This document shows, piece by piece, positions 4,970 to 60,146 of a stretch of 64,000 nucleotides of DNA (within the stretch, counting starts at the first letter, position 1; each line of letters begins with the position of its first letter). The notes beneath the pieces are model-generated. The model was not told the origin of the DNA, did not search any database, and saw only the letters and a list, made by a program, of their open reading frames with translations. This DNA is from Epibacterium ulvae (GTDB lineage: Bacteria > Pseudomonadota > Alphaproteobacteria > Rhodobacterales > Rhodobacteraceae), in the NCBI RefSeq assembly GCF_900102795.1, contig NZ_FMWG01000001.1, positions 248,001 to 312,000 of the forward strand, written 5' to 3'. The position numbers and the translations under genes were made by a program.

Positions 4970-5977
4970 TTATCGTTCCTTGACGTAGGGTTCGCCGCCA
5001 GCTTTAGGTGGCACGGCTTTGCCGACGAACCCGGCAAGAATGACTACTGTTAGTATGTATGGCAGAGCTTCCATCAGCTGAACTGGTACAGACACACCAG
5101 CGATATTGATGCTTTGAAAACGTAACGCGAGTGCTTGCAGTAGACCAAACAAAAGGCAGGCAGATAGGGCATGCCAAGGGCGCCATTTTGCAAAAATCAA
5201 AGCGGCGAGAGCGATAAATCCACGACCTGCAGTCATCTCTTTGACAAATCCAGCCTGCAGGGCTGTTGCCAGATACGCGCCCGCGATACCGCATAAGACA
5301 CCACAAATGCCCACAGCTGCAAAGCGCAGACCAACAACTGAGATACCAGCGGTATCAACCGCTGCTGGATTTTCGCCCACAGCGCGCAGGCGTAGACCAA
5401 AGCGTGTGCCAAAGAGCACCCAAGCTGTCAGAGGTACGGCCAGAAATGAAAGGTAAACAAGGATAGAGTGGCCAGAGATCAGTTCGGAGTAGACCTGTTG
5501 CAAGGGCGAGGCCTCGGCCAGCAGTTGCGACAGTGGACGACCTGCAGCCTCTGCCTCGGATGCGCCGATCGCAAACGGCAGCTCTACTGGTGCAAACCGG
5601 CCCCCTCCGATCAAAGAGGGGGTTCGGCCCCCTTGCTGAAACCAATCCTGAGCAATCAAAACAGTGATGCCTGCCGCAAGAAAGTTGATTGCAACACCAG
5701 AAATCAACTGATTGCCCCGGAAGGTGATCGAGGCCAGCCCGTGAAGGCCTGCGAGTACGAGGGAAGAAGCGATGCCCGACAGCAAGCCGAGCCAAACGTT
5801 TCCGGTTAGTGCCGCCACGGCTGCCGAGAAAAAGGCAGCAATCAACATTTTACCTTCGAGACCAATGTCGAAGATCCCCGCACGTTCAGAAAACAGACCC
5901 GCAAGGCAGGCCAGCAATAAGGGGGTAGACAGGCGAACGGTACTGTCCAGAACCTGGACCAGGGTCAGAAAATCCAT
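4970..5977 (-). CDS. BMP-type ABC transporter permease (second subunit)
   Basis: A 335-residue inner-membrane protein beginning MDFLTLVQVLDSTVRLSTPLL, with about nine hydrophobic helices and the family segments GLFSERAGIFDIGLEGKML and GRGFIALAALIFAKWRPW. This is the BPD_transp_2 fold of permeases serving Bmp/NupN-type nucleoside or purine importers. It overlaps the stop of the first permease by one base and is the last gene of the operon. Substrate cannot be read from sequence; nucleosides or a purine-like compound are most likely given the family. Confidence 0.85.
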   Translation of the reverse strand: MDFLTLVQVLDSTVRLSTPLLLACLAGLFSERAGIFDIGLEGKMLIAAFFSAAVAALTGNVWLGLLSGIASSLVLAGLHGLASITFRGNQLISGVAINFLAAGITVLIAQDWFQQGGRTPSLIGGGRFAPVELPFAIGASEAEAAGRPLSQLLAEASPLQQVYSELISGHSILVYLSFLAVPLTAWVLFGTRFGLRLRAVGENPAAVDTAGISVVGLRFAAVGICGVLCGIAGAYLATALQAGFVKEMTAGRGFIALAALIFAKWRPWHALSACLLFGLLQALALRFQSINIAGVSVPVQLMEALPYILTVVILAGFVGKAVPPKAGGEPYVKER

Positions 5978-52606: not shown

Positions 52607-53836
52607 TTAATCGCGATATTTGGAGAGAACCATCGAACCGTTGGTCCCTCCAAACCCAAAGCTGTTGGTCATAACGCTGTCGAGACCGGCATTTTTGACC
52701 AGTTCAGTTGCGATCTCGCCGTCGTTGATCCCTTCAGCCAAAGTCTCAACATTGATCGAGGGGGTGATGAAATCATTATCGAGCATGAGCAGACAGAAAA
52801 TCGCTTCCATTGCGCCTGCTGCACCTTGCCCATGGCCTGTCATTGATTTGGTAGAACTGATGGGGGGAACACTGCCTTCACCAAAGACACGGCGGACGGC
52901 TTCAACCTCACCAACATCGCCAACAGGCGTGGACGTGCCATGAGCGTTGATGTAACTGACAGCGCGTCCTTCAGGTAAAGTTTGAAGAGCCAGTCGCATG
53001 GCGCGTTCGCCACCTTCGCCAGATGGCGCGACCATATCATGCCCATCTGATGTGGCTGCAAACCCGGTTACTTCGGCGTATATTTTTGCGCCACGTGCCA
53101 GCGCATGTTCCAGATCTTCCAAAACGACAATGCCGCCACCGCCGGTGATGACAAAACCGTCGCGATCTTGGTCAAAGGCACGGGATGCTTTTTCAGGAGT
53201 GTCATTGTTTTTTGAGGACATGGCGCCCATTGCATCGAACAGGCAAGAGAGAGTCCAATCCAGCTCTTCCGCACCACCAGCGAACATCACGTCTTGCTTG
53301 CCCATCATGATCTGTTCGGCAGCGTTTCCGATGCAATGCAGTGAAGTTGAACAGGCCGAGGTGATGGAATAGTTGATGCCTTTGATTTTAAACGCAGTCG
53401 CTAAGTTTGCAGAAATGGTCGACGACATGGCTTTAGGGACTGCAAACGGGCCAATGCGTTTGGTCGCGCCTGATTTCAAAACCGTCTGATGGGCAGTCAG
53501 CATCGCAGATGTAGAAGGACCACCAGAGCCGGCAACCAGACCTGTGCGTTCATTTACAATCTGCTCTTGTGTCAGACCCGCATCAGAAATGGCTTGTTGC
53601 ATGGCAATATGGGCATAAGCGGCACCAGGGCCCATAAAACGCAAAGTGCGTTTATCGACATGTTCTTTGATATCGATTTTCAGCGTGCCTGCGATCTGGC
53701 TGCGAAACCCGTGTTCGGCCATCTCGGAGCTGGCTACAATACCGGACTTCCCGGCTTTAAGAGAGGCAAGCACCTCTTCGGCATTGTTCCCGATGCTGGA
53801 TACAATCCCCAGCCCTGTGACGACGACTCGGCGCAT
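52607..53836 (-). CDS. fabB: Beta-ketoacyl-ACP synthase I
   Basis: A 409-residue thiolase-fold condensing enzyme with active-site cysteine in ITSACSTSLHCIG, histidines in INAHGTSTPVGD and KSMTGHGQGAAGAMEA, and the FGFGGTNGSMVLSKY end. FabB is required for elongation of the cis-unsaturated intermediate made by FabA. The usual close neighbour fabA is instead 5.2 kb upstream, with the guanidine operon in between. Confidence 0.93.
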   Translation of the reverse strand: MRRVVVTGLGIVSSIGNNAEEVLASLKAGKSGIVASSEMAEHGFRSQIAGTLKIDIKEHVDKRTLRFMGPGAAYAHIAMQQAISDAGLTQEQIVNERTGLVAGSGGPSTSAMLTAHQTVLKSGATKRIGPFAVPKAMSSTISANLATAFKIKGINYSITSACSTSLHCIGNAAEQIMMGKQDVMFAGGAEELDWTLSCLFDAMGAMSSKNNDTPEKASRAFDQDRDGFVITGGGGIVVLEDLEHALARGAKIYAEVTGFAATSDGHDMVAPSGEGGERAMRLALQTLPEGRAVSYINAHGTSTPVGDVGEVEAVRRVFGEGSVPPISSTKSMTGHGQGAAGAMEAIFCLLMLDNDFITPSINVETLAEGINDGEIATELVKNAGLDSVMTNSFGFGGTNGSMVLSKYRD

Positions 53837-53918
53837 GCGGCCTCCCTGATTTGCTTACGCCTTAGTAAGACAGGCGGCTGTGATGGGCAAGACAGAGACC
53901 GTATGCACTAGTGTCACA

Positions 53919-53993
53919 TTCAAGAATGCACCTTTGGCACCAACAGAGAGACAAGGTTGAGATCTGTCTGCTGCGGCAACGTGCATTCTTGAA
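53919..53993. repeat. Perfect 13-bp inverted repeat around a 49-base spacer
   Basis: TTCAAGAATGCAC (53919-53931) is repeated in inverted form as GTGCATTCTTGAA (53981-53993). It lies between fabB and the end of the guanidine operon. It might be an operator pair, a long-loop terminator or a scar of insertion; no target-site duplication or transposase was seen. Confidence 0.6.
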
Positions 53994-54007
53994 AACCCAA
54001 ACAGCTG

Positions 54008-54160
54008 TTAGCGCTTAAGCATAAATAAAGCTGCCCCCGCTGCGATCGCAGCCAAGATCAAAAGTAATTCGATACCATGGGTGTGAAAATGATCATCGGT
54101 ATGGGCCAACACGGGCGCCGCTGCTGAGGTTGCAACTATTGCGGCAATAAGCGTTTTCAT
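54008..54160 (-). CDS. Tiny histidine-containing membrane protein, last gene of the guanidine operon
   Basis: A 50-residue peptide with a signal-like or first hydrophobic segment (MKTLIAAIVATSAAAPVLA), a short loop HTDDHFHTHG with four histidines and two aspartates, and a membrane helix (IELLLILAAIAAGAALFML) ending KR. The ATG overlaps the preceding gene stop as ATGA, with GGAGATAGAGG upstream. It resembles small DUF6732-like roseobacter proteins, but that match is tentative. The His/Asp loop, probably periplasmic, could bind a metal. Confidence 0.65.
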   Translation of the reverse strand: MKTLIAAIVATSAAAPVLAHTDDHFHTHGIELLLILAAIAAGAALFMLKR

Positions 54161-54606
54161 GCCTCTATCTCCTGTTTTCTTTGATATAAAAAGTCGCGAA
54201 TATCGAGTGTCGATTTTTCTTTCAGCGATACGTAAATCAACGACATATTGGTACGTTCCTGAACCATCTCGCCGGGGAAGGGAAGGTAGCTCAACTCTTG
54301 TGAGCCAAAGGACGGAGATGCGGTGCCCACTTGCCAATCGGTCTTCAGCTCGACGTCGATTAGCTTCAATGCTTTTTTGCCATCTTTGGCTGGACGCTCA
54401 AATGGCACACCTGCGAGTTTCAGATAGCTGGTCTTGTCAGTCGCTTTTAGGAACCCATCAATGAACTGCGTGGCCAGCACCTGCAGATCAGCGGCTTCAT
54501 CTTCATGATGCATATGGCTGTGCAGGTGATCCCCGTGGGCATGATTGTGACCATGCCCGTGAGGGGCATGGTCGTGATGGTGGTGATGTGGATGATCGTG
54601 TGGCAT
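54157..54606 (-). CDS. Histidine-rich putative metal-binding accessory protein
   Basis: A 149-residue protein whose first 37 residues contain 18 histidines (starts MPHDHPHHHHHDHAP), like the His-rich ends of HypB, UreE or SlyD nickel proteins. The rest (about 40-149: LATQFIDGFLKATDKTSYLKL, LIDVELKTDWQVGTA, DIRDFLYQRKQEIEA) is not a family I recognise; no GTPase motif is present, so it is not HypB. It shares one base with the ureohydrolase stop (TGATG), so the two are co-translated. A nickel storage or insertion role for the ureohydrolase is inferred from this context. Confidence 0.75.
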   Translation of the reverse strand: MPHDHPHHHHHDHAPHGHGHNHAHGDHLHSHMHHEDEAADLQVLATQFIDGFLKATDKTSYLKLAGVPFERPAKDGKKALKLIDVELKTDWQVGTASPSFGSQELSYLPFPGEMVQERTNMSLIYVSLKEKSTLDIRDFLYQRKQEIEA

Positions 54607-55880
54607 CAGACCCCCACCTTATGCGGGCCATCGTTGCGCCAGCGGCGCCCTGAAAATTCTCCGTGTGGCGTTGAGACAGGTTTGTCGATGAATTTTTTAT
54701 GCGCCCCGAGCTTGCCGTTAGAGACCAAGGCACCAAGCACATCGACAATGACACGCGTCCCCATAAGGGCTGTGATGTCTGAGGTATCATAAGGCGGAGA
54801 GACCTCTACCAGCTCAAGGCCACAGATGCCTTCAGCAGCAATGCCAGAGGCAAGCGCCAAAGCTTCACGTGGTAGGAAACCACCGGGTTCAGGCCAGCCG
54901 GTTCCGGGGACAAACCCACAATCGATAGAATCGATGTCAAATGACATGTAAACCATGTCGACATCTTTCCACGCCATTTCCAGTGCCATCTCGATGGTTT
55001 TATCGATCCCCATTTTCTCCATATCACCCATGGTGATAATATTGGTGTTGCGCTCACGAGCGACTTTGACGGCCTCGCGGGGAACTTGCCAGCCTCCGAT
55101 ACCAATCTGCACAAGGTTGGTGGCAGGTACGTTGGGCAAGTTGGTTGAATGGAACCATGGTGTTGTGTGCATCCGCTCATCCAAGTCTTTTTCCTGAATG
55201 TCGGCGTGCCGGTCAAAGTGAACGATACCAATCTTCTTGGATGTGCATTCTGCAATGCCACGCACACAGGGGAAGCCGATAGAGTGGTCGCCTCCAATCA
55301 TGATCGGCAGAGAGCCAGAGCTGAACACATGGCTGACGGCGCGGCTGATCTGGTCAAATGATTTTTCGATGTTTGCAGGGATGGTAAACACATCCCCCGC
55401 ATCGCAAAGCGTCATCTGTTCGCGCAGATCAACTCCGATTTCGTAATTGTACGGCGTGTAAAGCGCTGAGATTTTCCGCACTCCTTGCGGGCCAAACCGG
55501 GTGCCGGGGCGATAAGTGGTGCCGCCATCAAAGGGGATGCCCAGAACGGTTGCGTCATAGTCGGCAACTTCCAGAACGTCTTCGGCATAGGGGGCTTTCA
55601 GGAAAGTATTGATCCCAGCAAAGTGCGGAAGCTCACCGCGCGCAAAGGTCGGAATTGATTTGTCTTCTATGCTGTCGGCACCGGTCAAGCCCATGCGCAA
55701 TGCCCACTGGCGTTCTTCTTCCATGCGCCCTTCTGGCAGATCCGCTTCAAGATGCATGGCTTTCCATCCGGCAAGCTTCGTAAGGTCCGGGTGGTGATTT
55801 CGCTTTTCGCGTTGATCGGCAAGTTGCTGCAGCTCAACAGGGTGATGAGAACGGGATTTGGCCCGATCATTCAGAAACAT
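54606..55880 (-). CDS. gdmH: Agmatinase/arginase-family ureohydrolase, probable guanidine hydrolase
   Basis: A 424-residue ureohydrolase with metal ligands in MIGGDHS (H199), HFDRHAD (D223, H225, D227) and SFDIDSID (D315, D317), then VPGTGWPEPGG. It has an N-terminal extension of about 100 residues not found in classical agmatinases (about 300 residues), and reads DRHADIQEKDLDERMHTTPW where agmatinases have a DAHxD-type loop followed by a different sequence. These features, and the guanidine-I riboswitch leader of its operon, point to a nickel-dependent guanidine hydrolase (guanidine to urea and ammonia) rather than agmatinase. It overlaps the ATPase gene by 14 bases. Confidence 0.78.
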   Translation of the reverse strand: MFLNDRAKSRSHHPVELQQLADQREKRNHHPDLTKLAGWKAMHLEADLPEGRMEEERQWALRMGLTGADSIEDKSIPTFARGELPHFAGINTFLKAPYAEDVLEVADYDATVLGIPFDGGTTYRPGTRFGPQGVRKISALYTPYNYEIGVDLREQMTLCDAGDVFTIPANIEKSFDQISRAVSHVFSSGSLPIMIGGDHSIGFPCVRGIAECTSKKIGIVHFDRHADIQEKDLDERMHTTPWFHSTNLPNVPATNLVQIGIGGWQVPREAVKVARERNTNIITMGDMEKMGIDKTIEMALEMAWKDVDMVYMSFDIDSIDCGFVPGTGWPEPGGFLPREALALASGIAAEGICGLELVEVSPPYDTSDITALMGTRVIVDVLGALVSNGKLGAHKKFIDKPVSTPHGEFSGRRWRNDGPHKVGV

Positions 55881-56625
55881 CAGTTTCCTCCTTCATTTGA
55901 AACGGGATGCCGCCATCGCGGGCATCAAAATCATAAGTGATAGTTGCGCCATATCGGCCGGGATCATGTGGATCCCAGCGGGGCTTGTCGAAAACGAGCA
56001 CGCGATCGCCCAGTTTAAACCCTTCTTGCAGATCATGTGTGACCATGAAGACGGTCATGTTGGTTTCGTCGCGCAATTCCATAAGGAAATCATGCATTTG
56101 CAAGCGTGTTCCGGGATCCAGTGCGCCAAAGGGTTCATCCAGTAGCAGGATGCGCGGTTTGGCATTCATTGCTTGGCCAATGGCCAGGCGTTGCTGCATC
56201 CCACCTGATAAAGAGGCAGGATACTGATGTGCAACATGGTTCAGGCCAATACGTTCCAGCATATCATCGGCGCGCCTGCCGGCAGCTTTGCGCGCGTTGC
56301 GGCTAAGGCGTCCGAAGGGGGTGTTAAAGCTTTCAGCAGCGATCAAATTGTCGCGCACGCTAAGATGTGGAAAGACCGAGTACTTTTGGAATACGACACC
56401 GCGTTCAAGGTTGGGTTCGCGCGCAGGCGTGCCGCCATCGATGCGGATTTCGCCACGATAAGGTTGCTCTTGCGCTAAGAGCATACGCAGGAATGTGGAT
56501 TTGCCGCAGCCTGACGCTCCAACGATCGAGATGAATTCTCCTTCGTGAATGTCCACATTGACACGTTCGAGGATGGAGCGGGTTCCGTAGCGCTGCCAGA
56601 GGTTTGAGACGGTGACAAAGCTCAT
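55867..56625 (-). CDS. ABC transporter ATP-binding protein of the guanidine operon
   Basis: A 252-residue ATPase of the nitrate/taurine/urea-carboxylase-associated group, starting MSFVTVSNLWQRYG, with Walker A GASGCGKS, VVFQKYSVFPHLSVRDNL, signature LSGGMQQRLAIGQAM and Walker B ILLLDEPFGALD. The start at 56625 overlaps the permease stop as ATGA; the longer frame lies inside the permease gene. It drives import with the permease and binding protein encoded just upstream. Confidence 0.88.
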   Translation of the reverse strand: MSFVTVSNLWQRYGTRSILERVNVDIHEGEFISIVGASGCGKSTFLRMLLAQEQPYRGEIRIDGGTPAREPNLERGVVFQKYSVFPHLSVRDNLIAAESFNTPFGRLSRNARKAAGRRADDMLERIGLNHVAHQYPASLSGGMQQRLAIGQAMNAKPRILLLDEPFGALDPGTRLQMHDFLMELRDETNMTVFMVTHDLQEGFKLGDRVLVFDKPRWDPHDPGRYGATITYDFDARDGGIPFQMKEETDVSE

Positions 56626-57434
56626 AGACCTGCCTCCATCCATGGAAAGGCCCGGCGTGATAGGTTTTTCAACAGCCAGTCGATGAGGAAGGCCAAAACT
56701 GTAATCCACATGACGTAAGTAAGGATCACATCCATTGCGAGATACCGCCGTACAAGGAAGATCCGGTATCCTAAACCGACGTTTGAGGCGACAGCTTCGG
56801 CTGCGATCAGGAACAGCCAAGCAGATCCCAGTGAAAGGCGCACGTTTGAGATCAGCCTTGGCAACACCTGCGGTAAAGCGACGCGCATGGCAATGACCGC
56901 TGAAGATGCCCCAAGGGTCTGGGCTTTAACAATTTGTTCGTGGGGGATTTCCAGTACGCGCTGTGCAAGATCCCGTGTCATAAAGGGGGTAATGCCAATG
57001 ACGATGAGAACAATCTTGGAAGTTTCACCGAGGCCAAACACGATGAAAAGGATCGGTAAAAGCGCAAGTGGCGGAACCATTGATAAAACAGCAATGACGC
57101 TGGACAGGGTTGAGCGTGCATAGGGCAAAAGCCCAACTGCTAGCCCAATCGCAAGCGACAGTGTTGCCGCAATCCCGACACCAGCCGCCAATCGACCAAG
57201 GCTTGCCAAGGTATCATTCCACAAGAGGATTTCTTTTGACCGCCGATCGGGTTCCGTAAAGAGCCGTTGTGCCGTTTCAACAATGGTTGAGGGGGCAGGC
57301 AGAAGTTTGTCCTGTGGATTTGCTTCCAAGCGAATGTCAGAAGCAATGGCATATGCAAGAAAGATCGCCAAAAATGGCAGTGCAGCTAAAAGTATGGCCG
57401 CAGGGCGTTCTGGGATTTTGTTGATCCATCGCAT
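56622..57434 (-). CDS. ABC transporter permease of the guanidine operon
   Basis: A 270-residue inner-membrane permease with six or so helices and the EAA-type loop EQIVKAQTLGASSAVIAMRVALPQVLP, of the SsuC/TauC/NrtB group. It starts 65 bases after the binding-protein gene, across a stable stem-loop. Confidence 0.87.
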   Translation of the reverse strand: MRWINKIPERPAAILLAALPFLAIFLAYAIASDIRLEANPQDKLLPAPSTIVETAQRLFTEPDRRSKEILLWNDTLASLGRLAAGVGIAATLSLAIGLAVGLLPYARSTLSSVIAVLSMVPPLALLPILFIVFGLGETSKIVLIVIGITPFMTRDLAQRVLEIPHEQIVKAQTLGASSAVIAMRVALPQVLPRLISNVRLSLGSAWLFLIAAEAVASNVGLGYRIFLVRRYLAMDVILTYVMWITVLAFLIDWLLKNLSRRAFPWMEAGL

Positions 57435-57456
57435 GCGGAGCCCTCCTAGTTAGGTT

Positions 57457-57484
57457 GTGGCCCCCTCTGTCTAAGAGGGGCCAC
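57457..57484 (-). terminator. Stem-loop between binding-protein and permease genes
   Basis: GTGGCCCCCTCT (57457-57468) pairs with AGAGGGGCCAC (57474-57484) with one bulged C. A hairpin of this kind after a periplasmic binding-protein gene usually protects its mRNA and lowers expression of the membrane genes. Confidence 0.6.
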
Positions 57485-57499
57485 TGTGAGGTCACATCG

Positions 57500-58567
57500 T
57501 TACAGTTTGCCGTCGGCTGCCAACTGCATGTATGTCGTATCAAAGCGCAGCTTGACGTTGCCTGCATCGCCAGTGGTGCTGCCATCTGGATAGCTGACAC
57601 CAATAAAATCGGCACTGGGTGCGCCTTCGCCTAAGATGCCTTTGTCAAACAGGAAATCTGCAACATTTGTCATGGTTTCTGGCAGGTCAGCTGCACTGGC
57701 CTGCGCAACCGCATCTTTTGCATCAAAGAACATTTCAGTCGCTGCCAACTGTGCCTTGTAACCTGCTAGATCCGTGCCAGAGGCTTCGGCGAGTGCTGTT
57801 AGCACATCTTCATCACCAGCAGCTATGAGTGACATAACCTCGTACCACGCACCTGTAACAGCTTTGCCAAAAGCAGGATTGTCGGCCAGAGTTTCCGTAT
57901 TGACGACCATCAGGTCGAGGATCTCACCAGCGATGTCTGCACTGTCAAACAAGACATTGGCATCCGCGTTTGAGCCGGTGATTTCAGAGACCAATGGGTT
58001 CCATGTCACCACAGTCTCGACATCTTTGGTGGCATAGGCTGCGATCATATCGGCGTCTGAGGTGTTGATGACACCGTCCAGATCAGATTCTTCTAGTCCG
58101 ACACTGTCGAGTGCGCGGGCAAGAAGGTAGTGCGATACGGAGAGTTCGACCAGGTTGACAGGTTTACCTTTAAGGTCTTGTAGGCTGCCTTCACCTTTCA
58201 GAATAACCGCATCATTGCCGTTTGAATAATCTCCAACGATGAGCGCTGTCGTGTCAACGCCCCCACCTGAGGGAATGGACAGCGTATCCATATTGGTCGC
58301 TGAGACGCCATCAAATGCGCCAGCTGTGTATTGGTTGATCGATTCGACATAATCGTTAAACTGTACAATCTCTACGTCGATACCGTATTTGTCCGCCCAC
58401 TTGTCCATGATGCCACTGTCTTCCAGATAGCCCCATGGCATCCATCCGACATAAATCGACCAGGCAAGTTTGAATTCGGTTTTCTCTTCTGCTGCGGCAG
58501 GTACAGCGAGACCGGCCAGAACACCCATCGCAAGGGCCGTTGCAGACATTATTTTTTTAAATTTCAT
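57500..58567 (-). CDS. Periplasmic substrate-binding protein of the guanidine operon
   Basis: A 355-residue NrtA/TauA-like binding protein with signal peptide (MKFKKIMSATALAMGVLAGLA, cleaved near PAAAEEK), then FKLAWSIYVGWMPWGYLEDSGIM, FNDYVESINQYTAGAFDGVSATNMD and SNGNDAVILKG. This layout matches binding proteins found with urea/guanidine carboxylases. It is the first gene under the riboswitch; ATG 58565-58567 has AGGGAAAG three bases upstream (58570-58577). Guanidine or a guanidino compound is the expected ligand. Confidence 0.87.
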   Translation of the reverse strand: MKFKKIMSATALAMGVLAGLAVPAAAEEKTEFKLAWSIYVGWMPWGYLEDSGIMDKWADKYGIDVEIVQFNDYVESINQYTAGAFDGVSATNMDTLSIPSGGGVDTTALIVGDYSNGNDAVILKGEGSLQDLKGKPVNLVELSVSHYLLARALDSVGLEESDLDGVINTSDADMIAAYATKDVETVVTWNPLVSEITGSNADANVLFDSADIAGEILDLMVVNTETLADNPAFGKAVTGAWYEVMSLIAAGDEDVLTALAEASGTDLAGYKAQLAATEMFFDAKDAVAQASAADLPETMTNVADFLFDKGILGEGAPSADFIGVSYPDGSTTGDAGNVKLRFDTTYMQLAADGKL

Positions 58568-58585
58568 GTCTTTCCCTGTTGTTGC

Positions 58586-58624
58586 GTTCCGCCGTTTTTT
58601 TGGTTTTCGGCCCGCTGGCGGAAC
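58586..58624 (-). promoter_or_regulatory. Probable expression-platform hairpin of the riboswitch
   Basis: GTTCCGCC (minus strand, 58617-58624) can pair with GGCGGAAC (58586-58593), close to the ribosome-binding site of the binding-protein gene. The same GTTCCGCC occurs in the first conserved box of the aptamer (58745-58752), so GGCGGAAC has two competing partners, as expected of a switch. Confidence 0.5.
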
Positions 58625-58649
58625 TAAAGAGATCGGGCGCGGACTAAAC

Positions 58650-58770
58650 CAGCGCAGTAACCTCCCGGGATTTTGGCCCGCCGTGTGCCCTTTCGGATTT
58701 TGCCAAAAGGGTGACGCTTCTCGGACCTGACCCGCTGGGAAAGCGGCGGAACCCTAAGCGTCCTGCTTTC
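58650..58770 (-). ncRNA. Guanidine-I riboswitch (ykkC RNA)
   Basis: On the minus strand the leader contains, in order, the four conserved boxes of the ykkC/guanidine-I aptamer: CTTAGGGTTCCG (58747-58758), GGTCCGAGAA (58718-58727), ACACGGCGGG (58677-58686) and CCCGGGAGG (58661-58669), with AAAA between the last two. It lies 83 bases before the binding-protein gene. ykkC subtype 2 RNAs (ppGpp or PRPP ligands) share some boxes, but the downstream importer and ureohydrolase favour guanidine. It should switch the operon on when guanidine is present. Confidence 0.88.
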
Positions 58771-58968
58771 TCAAGTCAGGGCAAAGCTGGCTTTGAAATC
58801 AATGAATGTGACGGGTGAGGTTCAGGCAAAATCACAAATTGGTGGATTTATGAGCAATTCTGGGGGGATTTTGAGTAATTTTAGCGCAAAAAATTGAGGC
58901 GCAGGGCGTCTCGCAACAACCCGGTTTTGCGCGTAGCGTAAAAGATGTTCGGTTGCCCCCGAATCAAA
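58771..58968. promoter_or_regulatory. Region upstream of the riboswitch, presumed promoter
   Basis: This stretch lies between the fabA terminator and the aptamer and should contain the promoter of the guanidine operon on the minus strand. Several AT-rich candidate boxes exist but none stands out. No gene is visible. Confidence 0.4.
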
Positions 58969-58990
58969 AAAGAGGCCCTTGGGCCTCTTT
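58965..58990 (-). terminator. Rho-independent terminator of fabA
   Basis: AAAGAGGCCC (58969-58978) pairs with GGGCCTCTTT (58981-58990) around TT, with a T-run on the minus strand beyond it. It ends fabA and so separates fabA transcription from the guanidine operon. Confidence 0.88.
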
Positions 58991-59021
58991 CTATAAGTTC
59001 TTATTTCGATATCTAACGACT

Positions 59022-59531
59022 TCAGCTTTCGCTTAAAGCCACCTTCATGTCTTTAACCTGATAGATGACTTCGCCATCTGCTTCGACAATCCCATCTGCG
59101 ACACCCATTGTAAGGCGGCGGGTTTGAACGGCTTTTGTGAAGTCAATTTTATAGGTGAGCATTTTGCGATCTGGTCGCACCATGCCCGTCAATTTAACTT
59201 CACCGACACCCAATGCATAGCCGCGACCCTGCCAGCCACGCCAGCCTAGGTTGAAACCCGTCAATTGCCATAAGCCGTCAAGCCCGAGGCATCCTGGCAT
59301 GATTGGGTTGCCGGGGAAATGGCAATCAAAGAACCAAAGATCAGGGGTAATATCAAATTCCGCCAACACATGACCTTTGCCGTGCGCGCCGCCATCGGCG
59401 GAGATGTCTGTGATACGATCCATCATAAGCATCGGAGGAGCAGGAAGCTGCGCATTCCCTGGGCCAAACAGCTCACCTCGGGCGCATTTCAAAAGGTCTT
59501 CCTTGTCAAAGCTGCTTGGGTATTCGGCCAT
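59022..59531 (-). CDS. fabA: 3-hydroxydecanoyl-ACP dehydratase/isomerase
   Basis: A 169-residue hot-dog-fold enzyme with [28 protein letters not shown] (catalytic His and Asp), MLMMDRI and [14 protein letters not shown]. It dehydrates 3-hydroxydecanoyl-ACP and isomerises the product to the cis-3 enoyl form, starting unsaturated fatty acid synthesis. It is divergent from irr across 180 bases and has its own terminator. Confidence 0.95.
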
Positions 59532-59711: not shown

Positions 59712-60146
59712 ATGACGCTCGAACGTGCGCCCTCAGCGACAGAAACAGCTACACAATGGTTGGCTGCAGCAGGCTTGCGCCCGACACGGCAGCGTGTCGC
59801 CTTGGCAGAGCTTTTGGTTGGAGATGGAAGGCATCGCCATGTGACGGCTGAAAGCCTATTTGAAACGGCGAAATCCCAAGGCGCAACGGTGTCCTTGGCA
59901 ACTGTGTATAATACGCTGCGTGCTTTTTGTGATGCGGGGGTTCTGCAGGAGATCATGGTTGATGGAGCCAAGAGCTATTTTGACACGAATACGCACGATC
60001 ACCCTCATTTCTTTTGGGAAGACGACGGTCGTGTGACAGATGCCCCCTCTGATCAGTTGGTGATCACCAAATTACCTGATGCTCCTGATGGGGTGGAAAT
60101 TGCGTCGGTCGATGTAGTTATTCGCCTTCGCAAGACGGAAACATGA
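59712..60146 (+). CDS. irr: Iron response regulator Irr (Fur family)
   Basis: A 144-residue Fur-family protein with GLRPTRQRVALAELL and SLATVYNTLRAFCDAGVLQEI (DNA-binding helix) and the Irr-type histidine cluster THDHPHFFWEDDGRV. The N-terminal heme-regulatory GCPWHD motif of Bradyrhizobium is missing, as in other rhodobacterial Irr proteins. It represses iron uptake or heme genes in response to heme-iron status. The fabA-irr divergent arrangement is typical of this group. Confidence 0.92.
   Translation: MTLERAPSATETATQWLAAAGLRPTRQRVALAELLVGDGRHRHVTAESLFETAKSQGATVSLATVYNTLRAFCDAGVLQEIMVDGAKSYFDTNTHDHPHFFWEDDGRVTDAPSDQLVITKLPDAPDGVEIASVDVVIRLRKTET

Follow-up and report, generated by a model that had tools for sequence, protein, structure and literature searches.

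We studied a 64,000-nucleotide stretch of Epibacterium ulvae DNA (contig NZ_FMWG01000001.1, positions 248,001 to 312,000 of the forward strand; the whole stretch is called the window below), in which a minus-strand unit starts with a guanidine-I riboswitch and continues with six genes. Judged by its sequence, this gene set very likely serves to take up guanidine and to hydrolyse it by means of a nickel enzyme, the ureohydrolase GdmH, and we consider it likely that the unit as a whole is a guanidine-sensing and guanidine-using operon in which a histidine (His)-rich protein handles the nickel of GdmH. The core of this roseobacter-type operon is of a kind known from cyanobacteria and comammox Nitrospira, present here in another lineage; what is new is the lineage and, above all, the His-rich accessory gene. 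The content and order of the genes (transporter, ureohydrolase, His-rich protein and small membrane protein) agreed with an earlier sequence-only reading of the window, which named the last two proteins but gave them no weight; they are the less expected elements here. In the order of transcription the unit comprises:

58660..58768, minus strand: guanidine-I riboswitch aptamer (Rfam RF00442, 83.9 bits against a gathering threshold of 63, model positions 1-107 of 107).
57500..58567, minus strand: ATP-binding cassette (ABC) substrate-binding protein, predicted to bind guanidine (TIGR03427, 509.2 bits against a cut-off of 333.9).
56622..57434, minus strand: ABC permease (PF00528 above cut-off).
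55867..56625, minus strand: ABC ATPase (PF00005 above cut-off).
54606..55880, minus strand: gdmH, guanidine hydrolase of the nickel ureohydrolase type, 424 residues (assigned by scores against Protein Data Bank (PDB) chains, a tree clade with support 100/98 and motifs).
54157..54606, minus strand: His-rich protein, candidate nickel chaperone of GdmH, 149 residues.
54008..54160, minus strand: small protein of 50 residues with a signal peptide, an HFHTHG cluster and one hydrophobic segment (small His/transmembrane protein).

Four of the five gene junctions were overlaps of 1 to 14 nt, taking ATG 56625 as the start of the ATPase gene; its listed open reading frame (ORF) began at TTG 56820, and the ATG, which overlaps the permease stop, is the likely start. 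The binding protein and permease genes were spaced by 65 nt, and an ATGA overlap joined the small-protein gene to the His-rich gene. A 109-residue ORF from TTG 54337 was also considered as the small protein and seemed unlikely, ATG 54160 with 50 residues being the likelier start.

The sequence-only reading had proposed a guanidine-I riboswitch, with ykkC conserved boxes, on the minus strand, and the full-length match to the covariance model bore this out. It was the sole Rfam match at the gathering threshold in the window and the single RF00442 match in the whole 3.99-Mb genome; no competing Rfam riboswitch family appeared in the window, where a permissive threshold added two chance-level matches (a thermometer and a microRNA family). 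Among 25 aligned relatives, compensatory changes were seen at 17 of the 26 predicted aptamer pairs, which supports the fold. The aptamer scored above cut-off ahead of all 16 other GdmH operons of the order sample (see below) and in 8 of the 11 more distant operons, out of 13, that were put to Rfam. The Rfam match alone could also fit a ppGpp or PRPP subtype, yet the operon content gives no pointer to either. Two further elements were recognized in the leader:

58654..58766, minus strand: closing helix just beyond the Rfam model, seen by eye, pairing GCAG at 58766-58763 with CTGC at 58657-58654.
58586..58624, minus strand: hairpin GTTCCGCC/GGCGGAAC in the region between aptamer and start codon, with pair probability of about 0.9 in the free leader.

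The closing helix, which lies outside the Rfam model and is not part of the computed consensus fold, was kept with different bases in some relatives (GAACA/TGTTC in L046 and L047, by eye). The leader hairpin repeats a segment of the aptamer in its 5' arm and is a possible expression platform. Two mechanisms of control were considered and gained no support: an intrinsic terminator (7 terminator-like sites were found against 5.3 expected in 53800-59100, none of them between aptamer and start codon) and a simple Shine-Dalgarno switch (forcing the aptamer fold did not free the ribosome site). Control through translation or through Rho is possible.

By sequence, the ureohydrolase is a guanidine hydrolase of the GdmH subfamily, with a predicted dependence on nickel and guanidine as its predicted substrate. 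In a phmmer search of PDB chains it scored 530.7 bits against Synechocystis GdmH (7esr/7oi1) and 526.6 bits against the Nitrospira inopinata guanidinase (9fek), followed at a distance by a guanidinobutyrase (173.9 bits); the best agmatinase-named chain besides GdmH itself reached 128.8 bits. Both NCBIfam agmatinase models remained below threshold, one with 170.1 bits where 174.3 are required and the other with 202.5 where 302 are. A tree of 26 proteins (5 PDB pieces, 5 paralogues from the same genome and 16 GdmH-type proteins) placed the enzyme in one clade with 7esr and 9fek with support 100/98, leaving outside a guanidinobutyrase, a guanidinopropionase, a proclavaminate amidinohydrolase and the five remaining arginase-family genes of the genome; several branches outside the clade were very long and their placement is unsure. 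Thus, the earlier assignment of the enzyme to the guanidine hydrolases stood with respect to the two solved members, while its separation from agmatinases depends on the scores, the tree having no characterised agmatinase. The metal-site motifs were intact: GGDHS, FDRHADIQ, MHTTPW, FDIDSID and PGTGWPEPGG aligned with 7esr and 9fek. Of these, FDRHxD, MHTTPW and PGTGWPEPGG, together with GIGGWQ, were common to the guanidinases and missing in 8 other ureohydrolases, which had DAH instead and no Trp at the matching place; by our own residue count, the Trp of PGTGW corresponds to the published Trp305/Trp313.

The model matched by the binding protein is named 'putative urea ABC transporter substrate-binding protein', and the permease matched the TauC, SsuC and NtrB models, all under their cut-offs; from the gene context we infer guanidine as the substrate. 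Urease alpha was above cut-off in E. ulvae, as in each of the 30 GdmH genomes sampled, so the urea released by GdmH could be used. Together, the riboswitch score, the grouping of GdmH and the urease gene lend sequence-level support to the earlier view of the operon as a system for guanidine import and hydrolysis.

The linkage between gdmH and the His-rich gene was examined in three samples: an order sample of 149 genomes (GdmH at expectation (E) values up to 1e-120), a class sample of 385 (E up to 1e-110) and a phylum sample of 398, in which 30 distinct alphaproteobacterial GdmH genomes were found overall. In the order sample, 17 genomes had GdmH and those same 17 had a strong His-rich match; the order binding protein, permease, ATPase, GdmH and His-rich protein was unchanged in the 16 genomes other than E. 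ulvae, an arrangement that, with the riboswitch ahead of each, is beyond chance. One genome of the sample from the same family (G109) shares its gdmH with Shimia sp. SK013, in line with a placement among the roseobacters. The class sample contained GdmH in 11 genomes, 10 of them additional, and the His-rich domain in 13, including all 11. The two matches without gdmH were not intact genes: one had an in-frame stop (L152) and the other was read on from a piece of a binding-protein gene (L156). Three further GdmH genomes came from the phylum sample, each with the His-rich gene. In all, each of the 30 genomes had the His-rich gene next to gdmH, with -147 to 185 nt from the gdmH stop to the His-rich start (some starts are uncertain), and the probability of a chance overlap of the two genes came to 1e-22 and 1e-19 in hypergeometric counts that ignore kinship.

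The reverse direction gave the same picture. When GTDB representatives were scanned with the His-rich domain and the best 80 of 206 stretches were kept, gdmH preceded the His-rich gene, in order, at all 80 loci, and all five genes were present at 79, L055 being without the binding protein. Six order-sample loci share gdmH with six of these 80, so that some genomes enter twice into totals of the two sets combined (e.g., 112 or 96 loci). The downstream flanks mostly differed: 62 of 78, that of the window included, resembled no other flank by blastn. The linkage is therefore not mere background synteny, and the constant adjacency to gdmH in changing surroundings points to a shared function. Two loci departed from this pattern. 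In L172 the riboswitch lay immediately ahead of gdmH and the His-rich gene, and the operon's three ABC genes were unmatched in the 11.5 kb fetched. A weak His-rich match in L053 (G012, an eighteenth genome of the order sample), at 5272-5379, comprised 36 C-terminal residues, and gdmH was missing from the stretch fetched; this piece faces two ABC ATPase genes that we take to belong to a urea-type transporter set, and the locus is perhaps a decayed guanidine operon.

The His-rich protein of the window has 18 His in residues 1-46 and none in the remaining 103, which form the conserved domain. The start MPHD, an HNH motif, TxWQVGTASPSFG and ERTN were invariant in 17 close members, a thinner conserved core was retained across 13 diverse members, and 100 of 112 proteins started with MPHD. 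The number of His before the domain ranged from 1 to 28, with a median of 16.5, in 106 of the 112 proteins (L152 and L156 were excluded, and L069, L078, L091 and L098 failed the motif used). For the window protein, searches of Pfam (E up to 1) and of NCBIfam gave no match, which places it in no known accessory family; among 13 homologues, Zip (E 0.082) and a nickel/cobalt efflux transporter (E 0.056) were each matched once, marginally. A 59-domain profile retrieved nothing from PDB at E up to 5. A confident AlphaFold2 model consisted of helices and strands with a mean predicted local distance difference test (pLDDT) score of 91.3. Against PDB folds it gave 255 matches when E values up to 10 were admitted, but not one with an E value of 0.001 or lower. 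A known fold had been considered from a first model (mean pLDDT 71.9), which gave weak matches only, COMM domains foremost; the better model gave no significant one. In the literature we found no roseobacter guanidine operon and no His-rich partner of GdmH, though an earlier mention in Funck 2022, Nelson 2017 or supplements is possible.

We then considered how nickel would reach the enzyme. HypA was above cut-off in 8 of the 30 GdmH genomes, none within the operon stretches fetched, and was absent from the E. ulvae genome (HypB was not searched for). HupE/UreJ was above cut-off in 20 of the 30; neither HupE/UreJ nor CbiM/NikM was found in the E. ulvae genome, where other nickel importers were not searched for. 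In L173 the gene following the His-rich gene encodes a full HupE/UreJ (PF04955, 169.3 bits). A heuristic scan found the corresponding small His/transmembrane ORF, mostly of about 50-60 residues, in Rhodobacterales at 10 of 17 loci in one set and 62 of 80 in the other; among 15 distant loci, 2 had a similar ORF, one of them the full HupE/UreJ of L173. The small protein and HupE/UreJ are alike in their signal peptide, periplasmic His cluster, hydrophobic segment and operon position, and differ in that the former has 50 residues, a single hydrophobic segment and no PF04955 match; three small proteins tested (that of L151 included) did not match this model at E up to 1. By eye, the small protein of L151 resembles a shortened HupE.

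Three published systems resemble the operon. The Synechocystis sll1077 operon is alike in its guanidine-I control, SsuA/TauABC-type ABC importer (sll1080-1082) and GdmH. It also encodes the HypA/HypB-like loading proteins GhaA/GhaB (PMC12186494, PMC8390497, PMC10119275, PMC12930504), and its GdmH is described as depending on accessory proteins that deliver nickel (PMC12186494); in contrast, the window operon has no HypA and no gap big enough for HypB, and carries an unrelated His-rich protein instead, often accompanied in relatives by the small His/transmembrane protein. The operon of N. inopinata shares GdmH (9fek, see above) and riboswitch control; it has an APC permease and no known nickel loader (PMC11410670), whereas the window operon encodes an ABC importer together with an accessory gene. 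The metformin hydrolase operon (hypA, hypB, two ureohydrolase subunits and hupE) likewise encodes nickel accessory proteins along with a nickel ureohydrolase; its enzyme needs HypA/HypB, its HypB is called naturally His-rich, and its HupE has a counterpart in L173 (PMC11399263). It differs in having two enzyme subunits, HypA/HypB and another substrate, and the His-rich protein of the window has no GTPase-family match.

From these data we infer the ligand, the substrate, the nickel dependence, the direction of control and each step of the accessory proteins as follows. Free guanidine would bind the leader aptamer and raise expression, the ABC transporter would bring guanidine in, GdmH would convert it to urea and ammonia, and the urease encoded elsewhere in the genome would free the remaining nitrogen. 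The His-rich protein would bind Ni(II) through its His tract and MPHD N-terminus and dock on GdmH through the conserved domain, which is poor in His, to promote metallation; from its context, nickel delivery to GdmH is its likeliest role, and it may be a chaperone or maturation factor specific to this enzyme. Where present, the small protein with signal peptide, His cluster and transmembrane segment probably helps at the membrane, in the place taken by HupE in one relative.

Several observations weigh against this scheme. On the side of the leader, the Shine-Dalgarno region was still paired when the aptamer was forced and energy folding gave no clean on/off pair, and Rfam found no aptamer above cut-off in L150, L151 and L157. 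With regard to nickel, the His tract is near-absent in L155 (1 His) and L154 (4 His before the domain), which weakens a simple story of a His tail carrying nickel. Another loader could lie outside the operon, HypB, UreE and UreG not having been searched for in the genome, and a loader may not be essential at all, since the N. inopinata guanidinase was reported active when obtained from E. coli with no known chaperone (PMC11410670). Support from the small protein is uneven as well: the heuristic did not find it in 7 of 17, 18 of 80 and 13 of 15 loci, and HupE adjoins the His-rich gene in merely 1 of 30 genomes.

Other roles of the His-rich protein are compatible with part of these data. It could be a nickel store or buffer like Hpn of Helicobacter, making no contact with GdmH and leaving the core of the operon unchanged. 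The many His before the domain would suit such a role, as would the His-rich nickel-binding proteins known from Helicobacter; however, the best-conserved part of the 17 close members is the His-poor domain with its invariant TxWQVGTASPSFG and ERTN, domain and gdmH linkage persist in L155 and L154 despite their few His, and so strict an association with gdmH speaks for a specific partner. A tract ranging from 28 His to 1 counts against a pure storage role and favours the domain, and we regard the store as unlikely. The same adjacency in 30 of 30 genomes and the strongly conserved domain would equally fit a structural or regulatory subunit of GdmH with a secondary His tract, analogous to the second metformin hydrolase subunit, heteromeric relatives having been described (PMC11399263). 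Nevertheless, the His-rich protein had no arginase-family match and, according to PMC11410670, the guanidinase of N. inopinata is active as a homohexamer and resembles that of Synechocystis, which makes a subunit quite improbable.

With respect to the enzyme, its main substrate might be another small guanidino compound, guanidine being merely a signal or product. This option was raised by the authors of the N. inopinata study, whose enzyme has a Michaelis constant (Km) of 13.6 mM for guanidine (PMC11410670). We find it very improbable here: the GdmH-type motifs also occur in two proteins whose activity on guanidine has been assayed, the riboswitch family takes its name from guanidine and a transporter is encoded within the same operon. 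The reading we prefer remains a guanidine operon whose His-rich protein serves the nickel of GdmH.

The operon is flanked by genes that we take, from their sequence, to be fabA (59531-59022) and fabB (53836-52607). In 11 of 17 same-genus genomes these were spaced by 47-177 bp; three of the others had a gap of 0.65-1.25 kb and three no fabB within the 1.5 kb fetched. The 3' motif of the aptamer was absent between fabA and fabB in all 17, the operon not having been searched for elsewhere in them, and the stretches fetched at 96 further loci of the operon, a set in which six genomes occur twice, showed neither gene. The variable fabA-fabB gap suggests that the site may take insertions often. Divergent from fabA is a regulator gene (59712-60146), presumably of the Fur family and Irr-like, a relative of which adjoins fabA in all 17 same-genus genomes. 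A terminator-like hairpin with a T run, AGAGGCCC AA GGGCCTCT TTTTT (58966-58988), was seen 3' of fabA, suggesting a separate promoter for the guanidine operon. Downstream of the operon lies one more element:

53919..53993, minus strand: 13-bp perfect inverted repeat TTCAAGAATGCAC / GTGCATTCTTGAA (-38.6 kcal/mol, z -3.29).

None of 200 shuffles folded equally well and no T run was noted; the repeat is possibly the transcript end or terminator, or an insertion-related repeat.

The assignment of riboswitch family, GdmH subfamily, operon order, conserved linkage and urease gene, all drawn from sequence, would extend riboswitch-controlled guanidine use to roseobacter-type bacteria. For the His-rich family there is neither a domain model nor a relative of known structure, and still it is strictly tied to one enzyme in the genomes sampled; its gene is a concrete candidate for the supply of nickel to GdmH where no HypA/HypB-type loader is known, a question that PMC11410670 does not answer. 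More tentatively, and with somewhat less than even confidence, we propose that it belongs to an undescribed alphaproteobacterial nickel-maturation module that replaces HypA/HypB: a dedicated His-rich chaperone of new fold, with no chaperone-type nucleoside triphosphatase in the operon, joined in roseobacters by a very small His/transmembrane protein that faces the periplasm and derives from or replaces HupE. If this is true, nickel ureohydrolases would have evolved at least two separate loading systems.

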